Source: Pseudovibrio japonicus (lineage in GTDB: Bacteria; Pseudomonadota; Alphaproteobacteria; Rhizobiales; Stappiaceae). From it: a DNA stretch of 64,000 nt. The stretch lies in the NCBI RefSeq assembly GCF_014651595.1, contig NZ_BMXE01000009.1, forward strand, positions 62,001 through 126,000, read 5' to 3'. Positions 18,799 through 60,469 of this stretch are shown piece by piece. The position numbers and the translations under genes are program-made. Every line of letters begins with the position of its first letter. The first letter of the stretch is position 1. Under the pieces are notes generated by a model. The model was given only the letters and a program-made list of their open reading frames with translations. It had not been told where the DNA came from and did not search any database.

Positions 18799-18854
18799 GT
18801 TTGTGTTTGATAAGAGCACTTGGTAACAGCTCCCTAAAAAAAGGCGGAAAGCGA

Positions 18855-19481
18855 ATGATCGTTCTAAATCAAGATCAATTCATCGCTGCAGGTGCACTAC
18901 GAGAAGTGTACGTACATCCGGAATTTCACGATCGATGCATCAAAGTTGAAAAAAATCATGGAGGTGAAGGTGGGGCGGCTACATTAGCTGAGATCGTTTA
19001 TTTTGAATACCTTAAGAAAACACGACGACAGCAGCGTTTCGGGGCAATTGCATCTTATCATGGAGTTGTTGTGACAAGTAGAGGGCTTGGTACGGTATTT
19101 GACTTGGTTCGAGACGAGGAAACAGGAAAGACTTCCAGAACCTTATATTCTGAAATGTGCAAGCAGCATAATGACGTAGAGAAGGAACGGCACGAGAGAG
19201 AACTACGTGCTTTCAAGCATCGTCTTCTAAAAGATGCTGTTCTTGTTACGGATTTGTCACCTTGGAACATATGCGTCCAGAGGTTGAAGGGAGGACAGAT
19301 TCGATACTTCTTAATTGATGGCTCCGGACATCCGAACGCTCTACGGTATAATCGGTTCAGGATTTTCATTAAGATGTTCCGACAATTATCGCATCGGAAA
19401 CTAACGTCATATAATGTTTTGAAAACCTATTGCGTTGATTATGAGCTTTCGAAGATCCACTGGAGGGGAGTAGAAGAATAG
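18855..19481 (+). CDS. YrbL-like (PhoP-regulated network) protein
   Basis: This 208-residue cytoplasmic protein resembles the YrbL family of small kinase-like proteins. The opening LREVYVHPEFHDRCIKVEK resembles a nucleotide-binding lobe with a lysine, and VLVTDLSPWNICVQ followed by FLIDGSGH resembles the catalytic and metal-binding loops (D-x4-N and D-G) of aminoglycoside/lipopolysaccharide-kinase-fold proteins. The function of YrbL itself is unknown. The start is set at the ATG at 18855 behind GGCGGAAAG. Base composition is more A+T-rich than the flanking genes and it stands alone, suggesting horizontal acquisition. Confidence 0.65.
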   Translation: MIVLNQDQFIAAGALREVYVHPEFHDRCIKVEKNHGGEGGAATLAEIVYFEYLKKTRRQQRFGAIASYHGVVVTSRGLGTVFDLVRDEETGKTSRTLYSEMCKQHNDVEKERHERELRAFKHRLLKDAVLVTDLSPWNICVQRLKGGQIRYFLIDGSGHPNALRYNRFRIFIKMFRQLSHRKLTSYNVLKTYCVDYELSKIHWRGVEE

Positions 19482-50675: not shown

Positions 50676-50704
50676 TTGCCTATTCCAAATCATAAAGCTA
50701 TAAC
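50676..50704 (+). promoter_or_regulatory. Promoter of tRNA-Gln
   Basis: TTGCCT (50676-50681), a 17-base spacer and TATAAC (50699-50704) lie 18 bases before the tRNA. Confidence 0.6.
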
Positions 50705-50722
50705 CCGCCCCACACGCATCAA

Positions 50723-50797
50723 TGGGGTGTAGCCAAGTGGTAAGGCAACGGTTTTTGGTACCGTGTATCGTAGGTTCGAATCCTACCACCCCAGCCA
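50723..50797 (+). tRNA. tRNA-Gln (TTG anticodon), island insertion site
   Basis: Acceptor TGGGGTG pairs with CACCCCA, anticodon stem ACGGT/ACCGT encloses loop TTTTGGT with anticodon TTG, the T arm has GTAGG/CCTAC with TTCGAAT, and CCA is encoded. The last 20 bases are repeated at 55486-55505, marking the site where a genomic island integrated without destroying the tRNA. Confidence 0.95.
50778..50797 (+). repeat. attL-type direct repeat in tRNA-Gln 3' end
   Basis: The bases GAATCCTACCACCCCAGCCA at the 3' end of tRNA-Gln occur again, identical, at 55486-55505. This is the crossover repeat expected for a tyrosine-recombinase island. Confidence 0.85.
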
Positions 50798-50927
50798 TTC
50801 TTTCCTAAAAATCGTTATATGACAGCATCTTAAGCGATTAGTATTTCGCACAAGATTCTCTGTTGTACACAGCTGACGTGTATGACGGGTTTAAGCCTTC
50901 AACTCTCAATCTTGAGAGGTTTGAACC

Positions 50928-51179
50928 ATGCCCAAAATTCCGTATGTTTATCGCCGCAGAGCCGTATATTGGTGGCAAAGAAGGTTGCCTGTGCGGGCGA
51001 ACACTATTTCTCAAAAAAATTTCCGGATCAGACATTGTTTGCATGAAATTCGAGCTAGCGTCGCCAAGACGGTGGCTTTTGAGCTGACCGCTTACAGTGA
51101 AAAAGTGTTTTGGGAGTATAAAATGGGCGCAATTGACCACCTTGAAGTCCGCGAACTAATCAAAAAAAATAGCGAGTGA
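50928..51179 (+). pseudogene. Truncated tyrosine integrase N-terminus (DUF6538-like)
   Basis: The 83-residue frame starts MPKIPYVYRRRAVYWWQRRLP, which resembles the N-terminal domain of alphaproteobacterial tyrosine recombinases (DUF6538 type, with Y-x-Y-RR and YWW-RRLP). The later ELTAYSEKVFWEYKMGAIDHLEVRELI also resembles the continuing integrase. It stops at 51179, and no core-binding or catalytic domain with the R-H-R-Y residues follows in any frame. Its position and direction next to the tRNA are those of an island integrase. It is therefore a remnant, though a short protein could still be made. Confidence 0.65.
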
Positions 51180-51852
51180 TTTTACCTTTGAATTGTTTGT
51201 CATCGACGCCGCGCTGGTGGTGGATTTTTACAGGTAAACACGGAGAGTTAGAAAGCAAACGCGAAGCTTTGCGTGAACGTCTGAACCAGAGCAAAGCAAA
51301 TAAAGCGAATACGGAGTAGTCACTACTAAAAGCTTCAGAAGATCTCCTCTGCTTGGAGAAGAGTATTCAACAGAAGGTCGATGATAAGAGGCAGGAAGTG
51401 ACCCTCCGAATGCGTTTAGCAAACGAACGACTACCTATCATCAGGGTGGCAGCATTTGGACAAACAAACAAAGCAGAAAATGAAGCTGGAAGCAGAATAT
51501 GAATTTGCTCCACGTGAGCTGGCTCCGTCTCGGTTCTGATCAATCCAGCGTCTAGTGTTTGCACCACCCTGTTTCGTCTGATGATGATGTTGACACGCTA
51601 GGTACTTAGCAGCTCTCATTGAGTGCTCTATGTTGCAAGTCAGTACATAGCTTGTCTTTGGTTCATCGGAATTATGGAGCGAACTCGTTCCAACTTAAGA
51701 GGTGAGGGCTGCAATCAAACCAAAGTTTACGCAGAACTCTAAATCATCAAATTTACAGCACTATATGGACACGATCAGGCGCTATAGCGCCGATCTTTCA
51801 ATAAGATAAAAATCTTGTTGTCTTACCTCAGAGACCCACCCCTCAGCTAGGT
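51180..51852. other. Degenerate stretch within the island
   Basis: About 670 bases between the integrase remnant and the permease gene carry no recognisable gene. Short charged frames, such as one at 51188-51319, may be decayed remains of the integrase or other island cargo. The promoter of the three-gene catabolic operon must lie toward the right end. Confidence 0.45.
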
Positions 51853-52824
51853 ATGACCCAAAAAATGAAAATCAAAAAGACAATTGAGAAAGTCCCTGGC
51901 GGAATGATGGTCATCCCATTGGGACTTGGGGCAGTAATTAGTACATTTGCGCCTGAAGCCTTGCAAATTGGTGGCTTTACTACGGCCCTCTTTAGTGATG
52001 GGGCGACACCACTCATAGGTGCATTCTTACTGTGCATGGGTGCAGGCATAAGTTTGAAGACTGCGCCTCAAGCACTAAAGCAAGGCTCTGCGATTACCCT
52101 CTCTAAATTGATCACTGCGGTAATCATTGGGCTTGCAGTGCAAACTGCCTTCGGCGACGCTGGTTTTTACGGGATTACTGGGCTTGCGATTATAGCAGCT
52201 ATGTCAAATACCAATGGTGGGTTATTCGCCGCGCTTGCTGGTGAATTTGGTAATGAGAGAGATTTAGGATCGATCTCAATATTAAGCCTTAACGATGGTC
52301 CATTTCTAACAATGATTGCACTAGGCACCGCTGGCATAGCGATCATTCCTTTTATGACTTTGGTCGCCGTACTGGGTCCGCTGGTTGTAGGGATGATACT
52401 AGGCAATCTGGATAGCGACATGCGCACGTTTCTGACAAGTGGAGGGGCGCTGCTAATCCCGTTGTTTGCCTTTTCTTTAGGAACAGGCATTGATCTAAGG
52501 ATATTACTTGAAGCAGGCCTTGCTGGCATCGCATTGGGTTTTGTTGTCACGTTCGTCGGTGGTTTCTTCAATATCTACGCTGATAAGATTGCAGGTGGAA
52601 CTGGCATTGCAGGTGCTGCTGCGTCCTCAACCGCTGGCAATGCAGTCGCTACTCCTGCAGCAATTATTTTGGCTGACCCCACATTAACTGATGCTGCGCA
52701 ATCCGCTGCGCCTCTTATTGCAGCTTCTGTTATTACTACTGCGGTTTTAACGCCAATTCTCACCGCTTATGTCTCAAAGCAAAACCAACGGGCAACCATA
52801 GGAAAGGCTAGCAAGAATGCCTAA
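51853..52824 (+). CDS. KdgT-family sugar-acid permease
   Basis: This 323-residue inner-membrane protein of about ten helices matches the 2-keto-3-deoxygluconate permease family, with IEKVPGGMMVIPLGLGAVI at the start, then FLLCMGAGISLKTAPQALKQG and AAMSNTNGGLFAAL. In this context it probably imports a four-carbon sugar acid such as threonate or erythronate rather than KDG (inference from the two catabolic genes that overlap it). An alternative ATG at 51865 would give the more typical family start MKIKKTIEKVPGG. It overlaps the kinase gene by eight bases. Confidence 0.85.
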   Translation: MTQKMKIKKTIEKVPGGMMVIPLGLGAVISTFAPEALQIGGFTTALFSDGATPLIGAFLLCMGAGISLKTAPQALKQGSAITLSKLITAVIIGLAVQTAFGDAGFYGITGLAIIAAMSNTNGGLFAALAGEFGNERDLGSISILSLNDGPFLTMIALGTAGIAIIPFMTLVAVLGPLVVGMILGNLDSDMRTFLTSGGALLIPLFAFSLGTGIDLRILLEAGLAGIALGFVVTFVGGFFNIYADKIAGGTGIAGAAASSTAGNAVATPAAIILADPTLTDAAQSAAPLIAASVITTAVLTPILTAYVSKQNQRATIGKASKNA

Positions 52825-54070
52825 ATTGCTTGTTGTTGCCGATGATTTTACAGGGTCAAATGATACCGGTGTGCAGTTTGCCAACAAAGGTGCTTCGGTC
52901 GAAGTTAAGTTGTCGGATCAGGCAGTTAACTGTGATGTGACGGTTATCAATACAGAAAGCCGAGCGTTGACCGCCAATGAAGCGGCGTCGAGAGTTAGGA
53001 GCGCTATCAAAGACAATGTCGATGGTGACACGCAAGTCATCTTCAAGAAAATAGATTCGACGTTTCGCGGAAATATAGGAGCCGAACTGGAAAGTGCGGT
53101 AAATGCATTCGGTGCTAAATTAGCCATCGTAGTTGCAGCGATTCCTGAATCAGGCAGGCTAACTAAGAACGGCGTTTGCTATGTAAATGGCACACCGGTG
53201 AGCGAGACGGAGTTCGCTCGCGACCCCAAAACGCCAGTCAGCCATTCGAGCATTGCTGAGATAATTAGCTTACAGACTAATCTGCCGTGCGAAATTGTTC
53301 CTGTTGAACAAGTTAGAAGCCACACTCTCAATAGTCTTATTAAACAACACATCGGAGAACTTGCTCCAAGCATATTGATTTTAGATGTCCTAGCTGAGCA
53401 AGATTTGTCGACAATAGCCGACGCCCTTACCGATCTAAATGAAAAATTTGTATTAGTTGGCGCTGCCGGTATCGCGAAGCACTTACCCAGTTCCATGTTC
53501 TCTGAGGGTGTAGGTAAGCCAGTCTTGGTGCTTGCTGGGTCTATGAGTGAGACTACTTTTAATCAGATAAATTATTGCCGCAGCTTGGGTTTGAAAACCG
53601 TTTATGTAAGCGCGAGAGATATTTGGTTAAATTTCGAGGACACCCTGCGTGATGCAGTTGATAAAATCTCCTGGCAATTACAACAAGGAAACAATTGCGC
53701 GTTGATGACGCTTCAAGATCAGGGGGAGCGGCAGAAAGTTTTGGAGTTGTGCGCTGCGGAGGACGTCAATTTGAGCCAGATAAGTACCTCAGTGGCACGG
53801 TTCTTCGGGCAGGCGGGTAAGGAGCTTTTCACAAAATTTCATCTCGCAGGAGCGCTTCTTACCGGCGGCGACATTGCAGCATCGGTTGCTGCCGGGTTGG
53901 GCGCTTCAGGTTATAAAATTCAAGGTGAAATAGAGCCTTGTATCCCTTATGGGCACTTCACTGATAATAAAACAAGAATTGTGACCAAAGCCGGAGGTTT
54001 TGGCTCAGAAGAATCAATCCAGAACATTATTGAATTTTTGGAGGGCCCTCAATGCAACCAATCGGAATAA
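52817..54070 (+). CDS. DUF1537 four-carbon acid-sugar kinase
   Basis: This 417-residue kinase has the N-terminal DUF1537 substrate domain (LLVVADDFTGSNDTGVQFA, then KKIDSTFRGNIGAE) and a C-terminal ATP-binding domain with LTGGDIAASVAAGLGASGY. Family members phosphorylate D-threonate, D-erythronate or 3-oxo-tetronate at O4. Next to a PdxA2 gene without an OtnC/LtnD-type partner, a D-threonate- or D-erythronate-kinase role (DtnK/DenK type) is the most economical reading. It overlaps both neighbours, so translation is coupled. Confidence 0.85.
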   Translation: MPKLLVVADDFTGSNDTGVQFANKGASVEVKLSDQAVNCDVTVINTESRALTANEAASRVRSAIKDNVDGDTQVIFKKIDSTFRGNIGAELESAVNAFGAKLAIVVAAIPESGRLTKNGVCYVNGTPVSETEFARDPKTPVSHSSIAEIISLQTNLPCEIVPVEQVRSHTLNSLIKQHIGELAPSILILDVLAEQDLSTIADALTDLNEKFVLVGAAGIAKHLPSSMFSEGVGKPVLVLAGSMSETTFNQINYCRSLGLKTVYVSARDIWLNFEDTLRDAVDKISWQLQQGNNCALMTLQDQGERQKVLELCAAEDVNLSQISTSVARFFGQAGKELFTKFHLAGALLTGGDIAASVAAGLGASGYKIQGEIEPCIPYGHFTDNKTRIVTKAGGFGSEESIQNIIEFLEGPQCNQSE

Positions 54071-55032
54071 CGATGGGGGATGCCAGCGGCATCTCTCCTG
54101 AGATAATATTAAAAGCATTAGATGCTGATGCGTTGAAAAATACGCCTCTTGTCATCTTTGGCTGCTTTGAAACATTTGTTGCTCAAAATGAATTAATGCA
54201 AATTACAAAGAGGCAATTCAGCCGGATAGATGATGTAAAAGAGGCTGATTTTCAGAGCGGGAAAATATTTATCATAGATGTGCCTTTGGAACAGCCAGCA
54301 GGCTTGCAGTTTGGCAAGGTACAAGCTCAATGTGGTGATGCAGCCTATAGATGTATCGAGAAGGCAACTCATTTTGCTTTGAAAAAGCAGATTAGTGCGA
54401 TCGCAACGGCGCCCCTAAATAAGGAAGCGCTTCACCTTGCGGGGCATATGTATGCTGGACATACTGAACTTCTCGCTGAATTGACCAATACCCGTGATTA
54501 CGCAATGCTCCTATATACAGATAAGCTTCGCGTAATTCACGTTACCACTCATATTTCGCTGCGACAGATGCTGGACAGGTTAAACCCTGAGCGGCAAGAA
54601 ATTGTGGTTGAAATAGCGGAAAGGTTTCTCGATAAAATTGGTGAGAAAAATGCGCCCATAGCCGTGGCGGGCATTAATCCTCATGCCGGGGAAAACGGCC
54701 TGTTTGGCCGCGAAGAGCTTGATGTAATTGCACCTGTTATTGAGGGCTTGAAAAACAAAGGGCACAATGTTCATGGCCCGCAGCCGCCAGATACTGTTTT
54801 TCTGCAGGCATATGAAGGTAAGTACGCTATGGTAGTTGCCCAATATCATGATCAAGGCCATATCCCGCTTAAACTATTGGGGTTCCATTCTGGCGTAAAC
54901 ATTACTGCTGGTCTGCCGTTTATCCGAACTTCAGCAGATCATGGCACCGCCTTTGATATTGCAGGAAAAAATATCGCCAAGTGCGAAAGTATTATTGAAT
55001 CCATTAAACTGGCGGAAAAGCTGATAAACTAA
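54052..55032 (+). CDS. pdxA2: PdxA2-type 4-phospho-threonate/erythronate dehydrogenase
   Basis: This 326-residue enzyme is a PdxA-family NAD-dependent dehydrogenase. Metal-site histidines are visible in GHTELLAEL, NPHAGENG and QYHDQGHIPLK. PdxA2 members oxidise and decarboxylate 4-phosphotetronates to dihydroxyacetone phosphate instead of acting in vitamin B6 synthesis. The 19-base overlap with the kinase gene and the absence of other pyridoxine genes support the catabolic role. It is the last gene of the island operon. Confidence 0.88.
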   Translation: MQPIGITMGDASGISPEIILKALDADALKNTPLVIFGCFETFVAQNELMQITKRQFSRIDDVKEADFQSGKIFIIDVPLEQPAGLQFGKVQAQCGDAAYRCIEKATHFALKKQISAIATAPLNKEALHLAGHMYAGHTELLAELTNTRDYAMLLYTDKLRVIHVTTHISLRQMLDRLNPERQEIVVEIAERFLDKIGEKNAPIAVAGINPHAGENGLFGREELDVIAPVIEGLKNKGHNVHGPQPPDTVFLQAYEGKYAMVVAQYHDQGHIPLKLLGFHSGVNITAGLPFIRTSADHGTAFDIAGKNIAKCESIIESIKLAEKLIN

Positions 55033-55485
55033 TCGAACTAGGGGCAAGGGCGCTTCCCGCTGGACAACAGCAAATGCTTCAGCCTTGATAAAATAAATTG
55101 ACCACCTGCGAATTACCTTTTGTCGTGTACCTCGGCGAACTGGAAGCTCACCTTTACCGTGAATAGGTAGGCTCTAAAGAAGTCTTCGACTATTGCTTAG
55201 GCTCGTAGATCTACGAGGGCGACCACTATCGCGAACTGCAACATTTTATGTAACATCAATCGGTACGTTTTTGACAATTGATGGAGACAAAAGTCGCCCG
55301 CCTGCTTTCGATATTTGGGTCTCCAGCAGGCTACCTTCTGAGCGATCCATGCACGTTTCCAGAATTGTAAACCCATGCGAATGCTGTATTGCATACTGTG
55401 CCCACATGGGTGTAGTACATGAATTGTTTCTGAGTTGAAGTATATGTTATTTCAATGGCTTACCGAGATATGGAGAGGCAGCTGA
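55033..55485. other. Non-coding right end of the island
   Basis: About 450 bases between the last catabolic gene and the right repeat show no convincing gene; an 81-residue frame at 55193-55438 has no recognisable family and no good ribosome site. No terminator with a T run was found after pdxA2. Confidence 0.45.
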
Positions 55486-55505
55486 GAATCCTACCACCCC
55501 AGCCA
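55486..55505 (+). repeat. attR-type direct repeat
   Basis: An exact 20-base copy of the 3' end of tRNA-Gln, including CCA. The upstream bases do not continue the tRNA, as expected for the distal att site of an island. Confidence 0.85.
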
Positions 55506-55639
55506 ACTTTCTCCTTAAAGTTTTATGCAATTACAGCACACAGACTTGCGTTTGTGCGCGATGTTAGCGTTTGCATGTTCATCAAGAATGCAGCTGATTG
55601 CTGCGTAGACCCGTCAAAAAAACACCCCGCCCCACAAAC

Positions 55640-56302
55640 TCAAGCTGACGCTTCGCCATGTCTGAGCAGGTATACGCCTGCCCAGATGAACCAGACGATA
55701 AATCCAAGGCCGAAGATAATGCCGCCCGGTTCGCTCATGCCCGGAATAACTGTCACAAGACCTGCCAGCCCGATGAGGATGCCCAGCCAGCTCAGCCCTT
55801 TGGAGAGGCTGGCCCCGCGCAGCCCTGCCCAGCACAGCAGCAGCACCCAGAGGCCGCCGGTGATCTCGTTGCCGCCGCCAATGCCTTCCTGCACGTTGCC
55901 CAGTGTTGCCCACATCGCGAGCGCTCTGTCCTGATCCAGCTCATAAAGCGCAGAAACTTCAGCCAGGGAAATATTCGCAAGCATGCCGCTTGCCAGCACC
56001 AGCCCCGCCCAGATTAACCCAAAGGCCGCTGCAATCTGCGAAAGGCCCGGCGCTGCCCCTTTCAGCCGGTCATGCAGTGCAACAACGAGCACCACCAAAA
56101 ACACCGCGTTGACGATGTAGATGATGAAGTTCCACAGGTACATAAGGCCCTGATTGGACATCTCAAATGCGAACATATTCACATCATCGCCGTCTTCTCC
56201 GGCCCCTGCCTCTACAAGCAAAGTTGATAAGAGAGCAAAGCCGACAATATAAGTGGCAGCCGCGATCAGAGAGGCCACACCTCCGGTTTTTTGTAGGGTC
56301 AT
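55640..56302 (-). CDS. DUF4386-like integral membrane protein
   Basis: This 220-residue protein has about six hydrophobic segments with short loops. TGGVASLIAAATYIVGFALL at the N-terminus and the later LGNVQEGIGGGNEITGGLWVLLL resemble DUF4386-type membrane proteins of unknown function. No catalytic motif is visible. The ATG at 56302 has AGGA upstream; a GTG directly precedes it. It is divergent from the acyl-CoA synthetase gene and lies just outside the island's right repeat. Confidence 0.6.
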   Translation of the reverse strand: MTLQKTGGVASLIAAATYIVGFALLSTLLVEAGAGEDGDDVNMFAFEMSNQGLMYLWNFIIYIVNAVFLVVLVVALHDRLKGAAPGLSQIAAAFGLIWAGLVLASGMLANISLAEVSALYELDQDRALAMWATLGNVQEGIGGGNEITGGLWVLLLCWAGLRGASLSKGLSWLGILIGLAGLVTVIPGMSEPGGIIFGLGFIVWFIWAGVYLLRHGEASA

Positions 56303-58694: not shown

Positions 58695-59148
58695 ACACCT
58701 TTCCCGCAGCACACCTCCACCCGTTGTGGGATGAAATAGAGTGATACGCTTGAAGGTATGGTGTCTTTCCCAAGCTTGGTGAAGGTAGACTGGGTGTGCC
58801 AACATCTACCTGTCAGATTAAGCGTGTGAGTTGTCGGTTTGAGCCCCAGAGGGGAAAGAGTACGTCACCTAAGCCAAGGGCCATACATGCGGATAGACGG
58901 CCATGCGCTTTATATTCAAAGAGCAGCATGTGGATGAGGGGACTTACCTACCTCGTTCTTTTGGAAACTCTTCAAGATTGCGGGAGCGGAGGTCATATCT
59001 TCAATACGACCTCACAGCCCAAAAAATGATCTCACCTTGAAATTGACGACGCTTAAACAGTTGATGTCGCGTCAATGTTTAAATGCCGGAATATCGACGA
59101 AATATATGGTTAGGAGACTGGAGAAAAGACCTTTCGAAAGGACCTTCC
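58695..59148. other. Gene-poor, compositionally distinct stretch before the FAD oxidoreductase
   Basis: About 450 bases with no recognised gene. A short 77-residue frame (58796-59029) has no known family. The DNA and the gene that follows are more A+T-rich than the surroundings, so decayed mobile-element DNA is possible, but I could not identify it. Confidence 0.45.
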
Positions 59149-60450
59149 ATGGTTGTCTATTGTGCTACGACACCGCAGAAATTCTTTGATCAATTGCCAG
59201 CTCAAACAGATATACTTGTTATCGGCGGTGGAATAATTGGCATTTCTACCGCTTATTACCTTGCGAAAATGGGCGTGAAAGTAACAGTCTGTGAAAAAGG
59301 GTGTGTTGCTGGAGAGCAATCAAGCAGAAATTGGGGTGCAGTACGTCAGCAAGGTAGGGATCCTGCAGAATTACCCATAATGATCGAGGCAAATCTTTTA
59401 TGGCGCAATCTCGCCGTGGAGACTGGTGAAGATCTTGGGTTTCGACAACATGGACTTAGTCACCTGGCTGAGACTGAAGAGGCCCTGTCAGGTTTTGAGG
59501 ATTTTCTAAAGCTGGCAAAACAGTTTGAACTTGATACGCGGCTTCAAAGCGCTGCGGAAGTTCTGCTGCATATCGATGGTCGGCCAGGGAGATGGCTCGG
59601 CGGTATGATCACGCCAAGCGATGCCTGTGCAGAGCCATGGCAAGCAGTTCCCGGCATTGCACGAGCGGCGCAGCGTTTAGGTGCTGTTATCGTCGAGAAT
59701 TGCGCAGTACGTGACATCGAAATCACGAACAGTGCGGTTACCGGTGTCTTAACTGAAAAAGGGCGCGTTGAATGTAATCGAGTGCTCCTTGCCGGTGGCG
59801 CATGGTCATCTGTTTTTGCGGAAAAAATCGGGTTAGATATTCCCCAATCGTATGTGATGATGCCCGTAGCCTCAACCGAAGAGACAACGAACATTTCCTC
59901 CGGGTGTGCCTCTGATCAAACTGTCTTCTTCCGAAGACGGGAAGATGGCGGTTATTCTTTATGTGCCAAAGAGCTGTATTCGGAGCTTTCACAAAATGGT
60001 TCACTGGCGGATGCTGGCAACAAAGAGCAGGCTTTCATAAACCTATTGGCAGAACTTGGCTTGGAACCAGTAAGTTCACAAAATGGTACTGAAGAAACCA
60101 TTTTCGAAAAGTACCGGATCCTTAACCCAGCGCCTCCTGCAAAATCTGGACGGATAATCCTGGAACATTTTGGTGAACGGTTTCCACAGTTGGCTGACAC
60201 GAAAATTAGTGAACTATGGGCGGGGATGATTGACGTATTGCCAGATGATCTCCCGATTATGGATCAAGCTGGTAGTTGTGATGGATTGTTCATAGCGACC
60301 GGGTTTTCAGGTCATGGTTTTGGCATTGGCCCTGCGTCTGGACGTATAATGAGCGATATGATGCTCGGAAAACCTGAGCGCCATGATCTCAGCAGTTTCC
60401 GCTTTTCCCGTTTTAATGGCGCCACCCCCAGTACTCCCGCACCCGTTTAA
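59149..60450 (+). CDS. FAD-dependent oxidoreductase (DAO/glycine-oxidase-like)
   Basis: This 433-residue enzyme has the FAD dinucleotide motif ILVIGGGIIGISTAYYLAKMG near the N-terminus, SSRNWGAVRQQGRD, and a C-terminal FIATGFSGHGFGIGPASGRIMSDM where the FAD and substrate bind in D-amino-acid oxidase relatives. It would oxidise an amine or amino acid. I prefer the ATG at 59149 (GAAAGGA upstream) to the one at 59083, which has no ribosome site. More A+T-rich than its neighbours and lying between unrelated operons, it is likely acquired. Confidence 0.82.
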   Translation: MVVYCATTPQKFFDQLPAQTDILVIGGGIIGISTAYYLAKMGVKVTVCEKGCVAGEQSSRNWGAVRQQGRDPAELPIMIEANLLWRNLAVETGEDLGFRQHGLSHLAETEEALSGFEDFLKLAKQFELDTRLQSAAEVLLHIDGRPGRWLGGMITPSDACAEPWQAVPGIARAAQRLGAVIVENCAVRDIEITNSAVTGVLTEKGRVECNRVLLAGGAWSSVFAEKIGLDIPQSYVMMPVASTEETTNISSGCASDQTVFFRRREDGGYSLCAKELYSELSQNGSLADAGNKEQAFINLLAELGLEPVSSQNGTEETIFEKYRILNPAPPAKSGRIILEHFGERFPQLADTKISELWAGMIDVLPDDLPIMDQAGSCDGLFIATGFSGHGFGIGPASGRIMSDMMLGKPERHDLSSFRFSRFNGATPSTPAPV

Positions 60451-60469
60451 GTTAGTTCGCCAGAGCCAA

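Follow-up and report, generated by a model that had tools for sequence, protein, structure and literature searches.

The stretch of DNA analysed here, referred to as the window, comprises 64,000 nucleotides of Pseudovibrio japonicus (contig NZ_BMXE01000009.1, positions 62,001 to 126,000 of the forward strand) and includes, at the 3' end of a tRNA-Gln(TTG) gene, a genomic island of approximately 4.7 kb that carries three metabolic genes and the remains of an integrase gene (Table 1). The island is bounded by two copies of a 20-base direct repeat, identical at 20 of 20 positions and with their starts 4708 bases apart, the left copy being the 3' end of the tRNA gene itself, because the tRNA call made by ARAGORN and Rfam covers it. 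From left to right there follow a non-coding leader, an open reading frame (ORF) of 83 amino acids (aa), 673 bases interrupted by 8 to 15 stops per frame in all six frames, three intact overlapping genes, 453 further bases, and then the second repeat.

Table 1. Features of the tRNA-Gln island, in coordinates of the window.
Feature	Position	Strand	Basis or remark
tRNA-Gln(TTG), predicted integration target	50723..50797	+	ARAGORN; Rfam gives 50723-50794
Left 20-base direct repeat (attL core, tRNA 3' end)	50778..50797	+	
Left inner arm and integrase-gene leader	50798..50927	+	Alignable with G008, partly with G010
Probable DUF6538-type integrase N-terminal remnant, 83 aa, without catalytic domain	50928..51179	+	Pfam, tblastn
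41-base relic similar to a repeat end	51738..51778	-	Repeat has 35 matches in G013 and is probably an insertion sequence
KdgT-family permease	51853..52824	+	Pfam KdgT E 1.8e-111; TIGR00793 263 bits, cut-off 453.8
DUF1537-family (four-carbon acid sugar) kinase, probable D-threonate kinase	52817..54070	+	Pfam SBD_N, NBD_C
PdxA2-like dehydrogenase, probable D-threonate 4-phosphate dehydrogenase	54052..55032	+	Pfam PdxA E 1.7e-101
Right inner arm	55392..55485	+	Homologous to right arm of the G008 island
Right 20-base direct repeat (attR core)	55486..55505	+	

Searches allowing up to three mismatches recovered the 20-mer at just these two sites in the window and at none in 100 shuffles. With up to two mismatches the same two sites alone were recovered from the entire genome of 4,955,595 bases, the reversed control giving none, and a model of base composition predicted 4e-9 chance copies in 10 kb. 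A chance or common repeat was thereby ruled out, the second of these being an eventuality that the original prediction had itself named as fatal to its argument. The borders given in that prediction, namely identical 20-base repeats that enclose 4.7 kb and of which one is the tRNA-Gln 3' end, were correct.

The enclosed DNA also differs in composition, with 45.8% G+C against 52.9% in the rest of the window (52.4% overall); values in 500-base windows ranged from 43 to 48% inside the island and from 51 to 59% in the near flanks. The G+C content at third codon positions (GC3) of the three genes is 0.41-0.45, compared with a mean of 0.578 (sd 0.068) for the 45 window ORFs of at least 200 aa, a set that includes the three genes, and their description as overlapping metabolic genes of different composition therefore holds. 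Equally low values were recorded for two window ORFs outside the island. One, a 226-aa ORF at 18801-19481, has the lowest GC3 of the 45 (0.388). The other (59083-60450, GC3 0.406) encodes a flavin adenine dinucleotide (FAD)-dependent oxidoreductase, whose top NCBIfam model, sarcosine oxidase beta-type, scored far under its cut-off; it is situated within a second low-G+C insertion near the island (58695-60468) that had no counterpart by blastn among the 16 loci from relatives described below.

The tRNA-Gln loci of 15 relatives from the same genus, amounting to 16 loci since one genome (G013) has two copies of the tRNA, were searched at up to three mismatches for a second copy of the window 20-mer, over 17.4 kb in 14 loci and over 1.8 and 1.0 kb in the two from G013. 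A downstream copy was detected in one of the 16, that of G008, where it ends 4968 bases beyond the tRNA. The islands of the window and G008 were 72% identical over 228 bases at the inner left end and 79% over 115 bases at the inner right end, repeat included, while blastn (E 1e-3) gave no match between the two genomes in the 2 kb before the tRNA or after the right repeat. Because the surroundings differ, the shared arms mark the ends of an element, and these boundaries recur in G008 around different cargo: a protein of 692 aa whose similarity to nuclease-type domains is weak (NERD, E 0.014, below cut-off; PADLOC CARF_PDDEXK, E 7e-4), an ORF with a sub-threshold NikA-like match, and IS3-type transposase ORFs. 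Integration of an element at the 3' end of tRNA-Gln, as proposed, is thus borne out by ends that recur with other cargo and in other surroundings.

A model of the left arm constructed from the window and G008 matched three of 87 genomes of the family at E <= 1e-6; the P. japonicus and G008 genomes did so by construction, leaving G010 (1.9e-14) as the sole new match. Direct alignment of the G010 left arm without the repeat was equalled in none of 200 shuffles. The right repeat is absent from G010, the cargo of which consists of a GntR-type regulator, a DapA-superfamily gene and a TRAP transporter. An equivalent model of the right arm, again matching its two parent genomes by construction, gave no further convincing match among the 87 genomes; a weak match to G066 (8.6e-4) was not counted.

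Both flanks of the window site were recognisable in seven of the 16 loci (L031, L032, L036, L037, L038, L040 and L043). In G009 (L038) and G011 (L040) the right flank begins 295 and 294 bases past the tRNA with no island between, the distance in the window from the right repeat to that same point being 133 bases, and these two loci are near-empty sites. The comparison of tRNA-Gln loci that the original prediction had recommended thus yielded both near-empty sites and, in G008, other cargo, and the situation that it had feared, in which relatives hold the same genes without the second repeat, did not arise in so far as the kinase gene was absent from all 15 relatives. Three further loci (L031, L032 and L037) contain about 3.5 kb of other genes at the site without a second repeat, and therefore not everything found there is a bounded island. 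G013 presents a different arrangement: its two complete tRNA-Gln(TTG) copies (L034 1816-1890 and L035 8901-8975) are located on separate contigs, one following an RND operon and preceding a DUF6538-type integrase, the other following type I restriction genes and preceding the usual right flank. A single island whose insertion duplicated the entire tRNA may lie between these two copies. The genes carried in G013 are those of a type I restriction-modification system, in which the hsdR domains are split over two ORFs.

The 83-aa ORF at the left end was matched by tblastn to the integrase fragment of G008 (E 5e-10), in agreement with its earlier description as an integrase N-terminal remnant. In G008 the integrase gene yields a 223-aa fragment (DUF6538 E 1.3e-5, 25.3 bits, under the Pfam cut-off) followed by the IS3-type transposase ORFs (HTH_Tnp_1; HTH_21 and rve), and none of the three other ORFs scanned before the right end, short frames not being scanned, gave a recombinase catalytic match. 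In G010 only nine codons of the same integrase start precede a stop. Since none of the three arm-sharing copies yielded an intact integrase, they appear to be relics of a single element family, immobilised at a tRNA-Gln hotspot. A search of the P. japonicus genome for the catalytic domain PF00589 gave seven places, all on other contigs; with an 83-aa remnant as its only integrase sequence and no PF00589 match on its contig, the island is a relic rather than an active member of its class. That search is a better test for catalytic remains than tblastn with an integrase ORF from G121, a member of the same order but another family, which gave nothing under E 0.3 in either non-coding gap and is a weak test because the G121 ORF itself has no Phage_integrase match.

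Homologues elsewhere help to place the remnant. The G121 ORF, a homologue of the G008 fragment (E 4.2e-5), is located beside tRNA-Gln(TTG) and gives a DUF6538 match above cut-off (50.6 bits) plus a weak SAM-like match; a copy of its tRNA 3' end with one mismatch occurs 43.5 kb away. A further homologue in G275 (DUF6538, 55.9 bits) is overlapped in another frame by an ORF with a PF00589 match. One tRNA-Gln copy of G013 is next to a different DUF6538-type gene (E 1.2e-4, 22.2 bits, below cut-off), which continues into a repeat close to the end of the contig. Genes of this type adjoin tRNA-Gln(TTG) in G008, G013 and, outside the family, G121. From these matches the remnant probably belongs with the tyrosine recombinases, and its type occurs at tRNA-Gln more than once. 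A literature search returned no paper on DUF6538.

Two additional observations concern these recombinases. At L053 8173-8262 (G000:C10) in the P. japonicus genome, its only above-cut-off DUF6538 integrase, an intact-looking 440-aa ORF with a PF00589 match in the same frame, adjoins tRNA-Ser(GCT) and probably marks another island. An inverted repeat, which reads CTCTCAA..TTGAGAG in the window (50898-50921), covers the probable ribosome-binding site immediately ahead of the integrase gene in all three elements (the window and the left arms of L029, the G008 locus, and L043); the z-scores for its fold were -2.6, -3.4 and -1.3, that for G010 not being significant, and the best fold of the window sequence pairs otherwise.

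With respect to the cargo, the kinase contains both domains of the DUF1537 family, for which Zhang 2016 is reportedly the primary paper. For both kinase and dehydrogenase the D-threonate equivalogs were the best models by score, NF047819 (D-threonate kinase) giving 419.5 bits and NF002891 (D-threonate 4-phosphate dehydrogenase) 474 bits, and the dehydrogenase passed the broader pdxA model. Structures have been solved for relatives of the kinase (4xfm) and of the dehydrogenase (2hi1 and 6e85), 6e85 being named a D-threonate 4-phosphate dehydrogenase. Alignments confirmed the retention of ADDFTG, KKIDST and KAGGFG in the kinase and of GHTELL, THI and YHDQGHIPLK in the dehydrogenase, stretches that presumably bind ATP and metal. 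The most likely predicted function is growth on D-threonate through its uptake, phosphorylation and oxidation to dihydroxyacetone phosphate (DHAP), and the tetronate of the original prediction is probably best narrowed to D-threonate. In one published account (PMC10079672), Escherichia coli expressing a kinase and a dehydrogenase grew on D-threonate only where the strain had a KdgT permease as well. Homology, together with that growth test on enzymes of similar kinds, suggests that the three genes suffice for growth on this substrate. Literature searches returned nothing that joined pdxA2 with kdgT, or 'four-carbon acid sugars' with D-threonate and kinase, and nothing related by title on D-threonate genes in a genomic island or on tRNA-Gln genomic islands of this description.

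The kinase gene was present in one of the 16 genomes of the genus, the search having used the kinase and not the permease or dehydrogenase separately; P. japonicus has a second, distant kinase match on another contig (39% over 150 residues). It was present in one of 397 genomes of the order at E <= 1e-60 and in six of 398 genomes of the phylum at E <= 1e-40, the other five belonging to a single family; both sets are even samples, and a closer donor may exist. When three distant loci were compared, only G791 carried the complete set in the same order (identities of 72, 42 and 64% to the island genes), with a DeoR-type regulator following, while G619 gave no dehydrogenase match and G798 no permease match. 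The G791 operon is of enterobacterial type, because it is flanked by what we take, by eye, to be acnB and speE/speD. Salmonella has a parallel operon. Annotated Klebsiella and Pantoea records place the kinase, a D-threonate 4-phosphate dehydrogenase and a DeoR-type regulator together, with no adjacent kdgT.

Plasmid, contig and viral searches revealed no near source of the cassette. DNA matches occurred in 43 plasmid records; the 15 listed (Pantoea, Klebsiella, rhizobia) covered at most 12% of the island at up to 67% identity, and one record outside these 15 fell in the 80-90% band. Kinase matches in 1350 plasmid records were all below 60% identity, a search of genome contigs gave one match (34%), and viral contigs gave no match to the dehydrogenase. 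One entry in the plasmid collection, CP125156.1, is a 5.37 Mb Klebsiella record labelled a plasmid and is probably a mislabelled chromosome.

Taken together, these data make it very probable that the island is a small integrative element in the 3' end of tRNA-Gln(TTG), its integrase broken, carrying a D-threonate operon from outside the order. A DUF6538-type tyrosine recombinase encoded at the left end would have integrated the element into the tRNA 3' end, keeping the tRNA whole at the left and duplicating its last 20 bases at the far end, which matches the observed arrangement. Subsequent loss of the catalytic part of the recombinase would have left the island immobile, barring action in trans by a related recombinase. 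The kdgT-dtnK-pdxA2 operon, comprising its sole intact genes, would have come from outside the order and, if expressed at present, would enable KdgT to import D-threonate, the kinase to phosphorylate it at C4, and the dehydrogenase to oxidise the product, with decarboxylation yielding DHAP. Whether the element was once larger is a separate matter. The original prediction held that it had shed nearly everything except a self-contained pathway; self-containment is supported in that the three genes look sufficient. The visible relics are the integrase stub and possibly an insertion-sequence end, the latter some 75 bases before kdgT, which hints that an insertion sequence took part in the island's history. 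Shedding of a larger content is compatible with the data, and so, to the same degree, is later acquisition of the cassette by a small element.

Several results weigh against this interpretation. A base-exact empty site was not found, G009 and G011 holding approximately 160 extra bases between the tRNA and the right flank, and the match of the 83-aa remnant to Pfam DUF6538 (E 0.0022, 18 bits, cut-off 27) is sub-threshold. All three best NCBIfam names for the cargo scored under their curated cut-offs (450 for the kinase model and 583 for the dehydrogenase model), and one conserved stretch of the dehydrogenase is changed (TMGDASGISPE versus TMGDPAGIGPE). The DeoR-type regulator of the G791 operon is absent from the island, and a promoter scan of 50700-55700 gave three sites against 7.9 expected, with none in 51180-51852.

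Another explanation is that the island still moves, as a non-autonomous mini-island dependent on a related DUF6538 recombinase that acts in trans on its conserved ends, these being retained as the cargo is exchanged. It would account for the three members of the genus in which a shared end at this tRNA is accompanied by different cargo each time, and the intact-looking 440-aa recombinase provides a candidate enzyme; however, that ORF adjoins tRNA-Ser rather than tRNA-Gln and its action on these ends is only hypothetical, while arms diverged to 72-79% and the loss of the right repeat in G010 tell against continuing movement, and we consider this explanation unlikely. A wider version is similarly doubtful: related DUF6538 recombinases would mobilise in trans a family of fixed-end mini-islands with interchangeable cargo at tRNA-Gln(TTG), and through these the species of the genus would receive single catabolic or defence modules.

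Repeated loss of an ancestral cassette-bearing island from other members of the genus would be favoured by the high turnover evident at the tRNA-Gln site, given that near-empty sites and other islands occur there in relatives. The kinase is nevertheless missing both from the 15 relatives and, at E <= 1e-60, from the other 396 genomes of the order, the best kinase relatives found are in one distant family and the composition is foreign, all of which renders such a history very improbable. Fragments of tRNA genes do occur, and the two other low-GC3 ORFs show that such composition is not confined to the island, so it might be supposed that the repeat arose by chance beside an old chromosomal operon. 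Against the expectation of 4e-9 copies per 10 kb, the homologous arms of G008 inside the repeats with none outside, and a shift of composition at both repeats, this supposition merits almost no credence.

The preferred interpretation, that of a relic integrative element, places the island within a known kind, the tRNA-integrated island, and the case is a tidy but ordinary one of gene acquisition. Like tRNA-integrated islands of tyrosine recombinases generally, it has a tRNA 3' end as its target, a repeat at the far side and an integrase reading away from the tRNA; unlike them, it is very small, with one operon as cargo, a truncated integrase and no recognised transfer or phage genes. The G008 island shares the same 20-base repeat, homologous arms and a truncated DUF6538-type gene, and differs in its cargo. 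The G791 operon has the same three genes in the same order, and differs in the regulator that follows and in that no island was seen around it. Tycheposons likewise combine a tRNA border, a tyrosine recombinase, metabolic cargo and a size range quoted as 4-200 kb (PMC10872708); the likeness covers tRNA, recombinase, cargo and size, tycheposons having other hosts and the recombinase in the window being truncated.

The island is a clean, boundary-resolved case of a single nutritional operon brought in by site-specific integration and apparently immobilised afterwards, when the integrase was lost. Of most lasting value are the sister elements of this genus, alike at their ends yet unlike in cargo, through which ends, integrase and cargo can be followed as they evolve separately. 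For P. japonicus itself, growth on D-threonate is predicted for this strain and not for its relatives.

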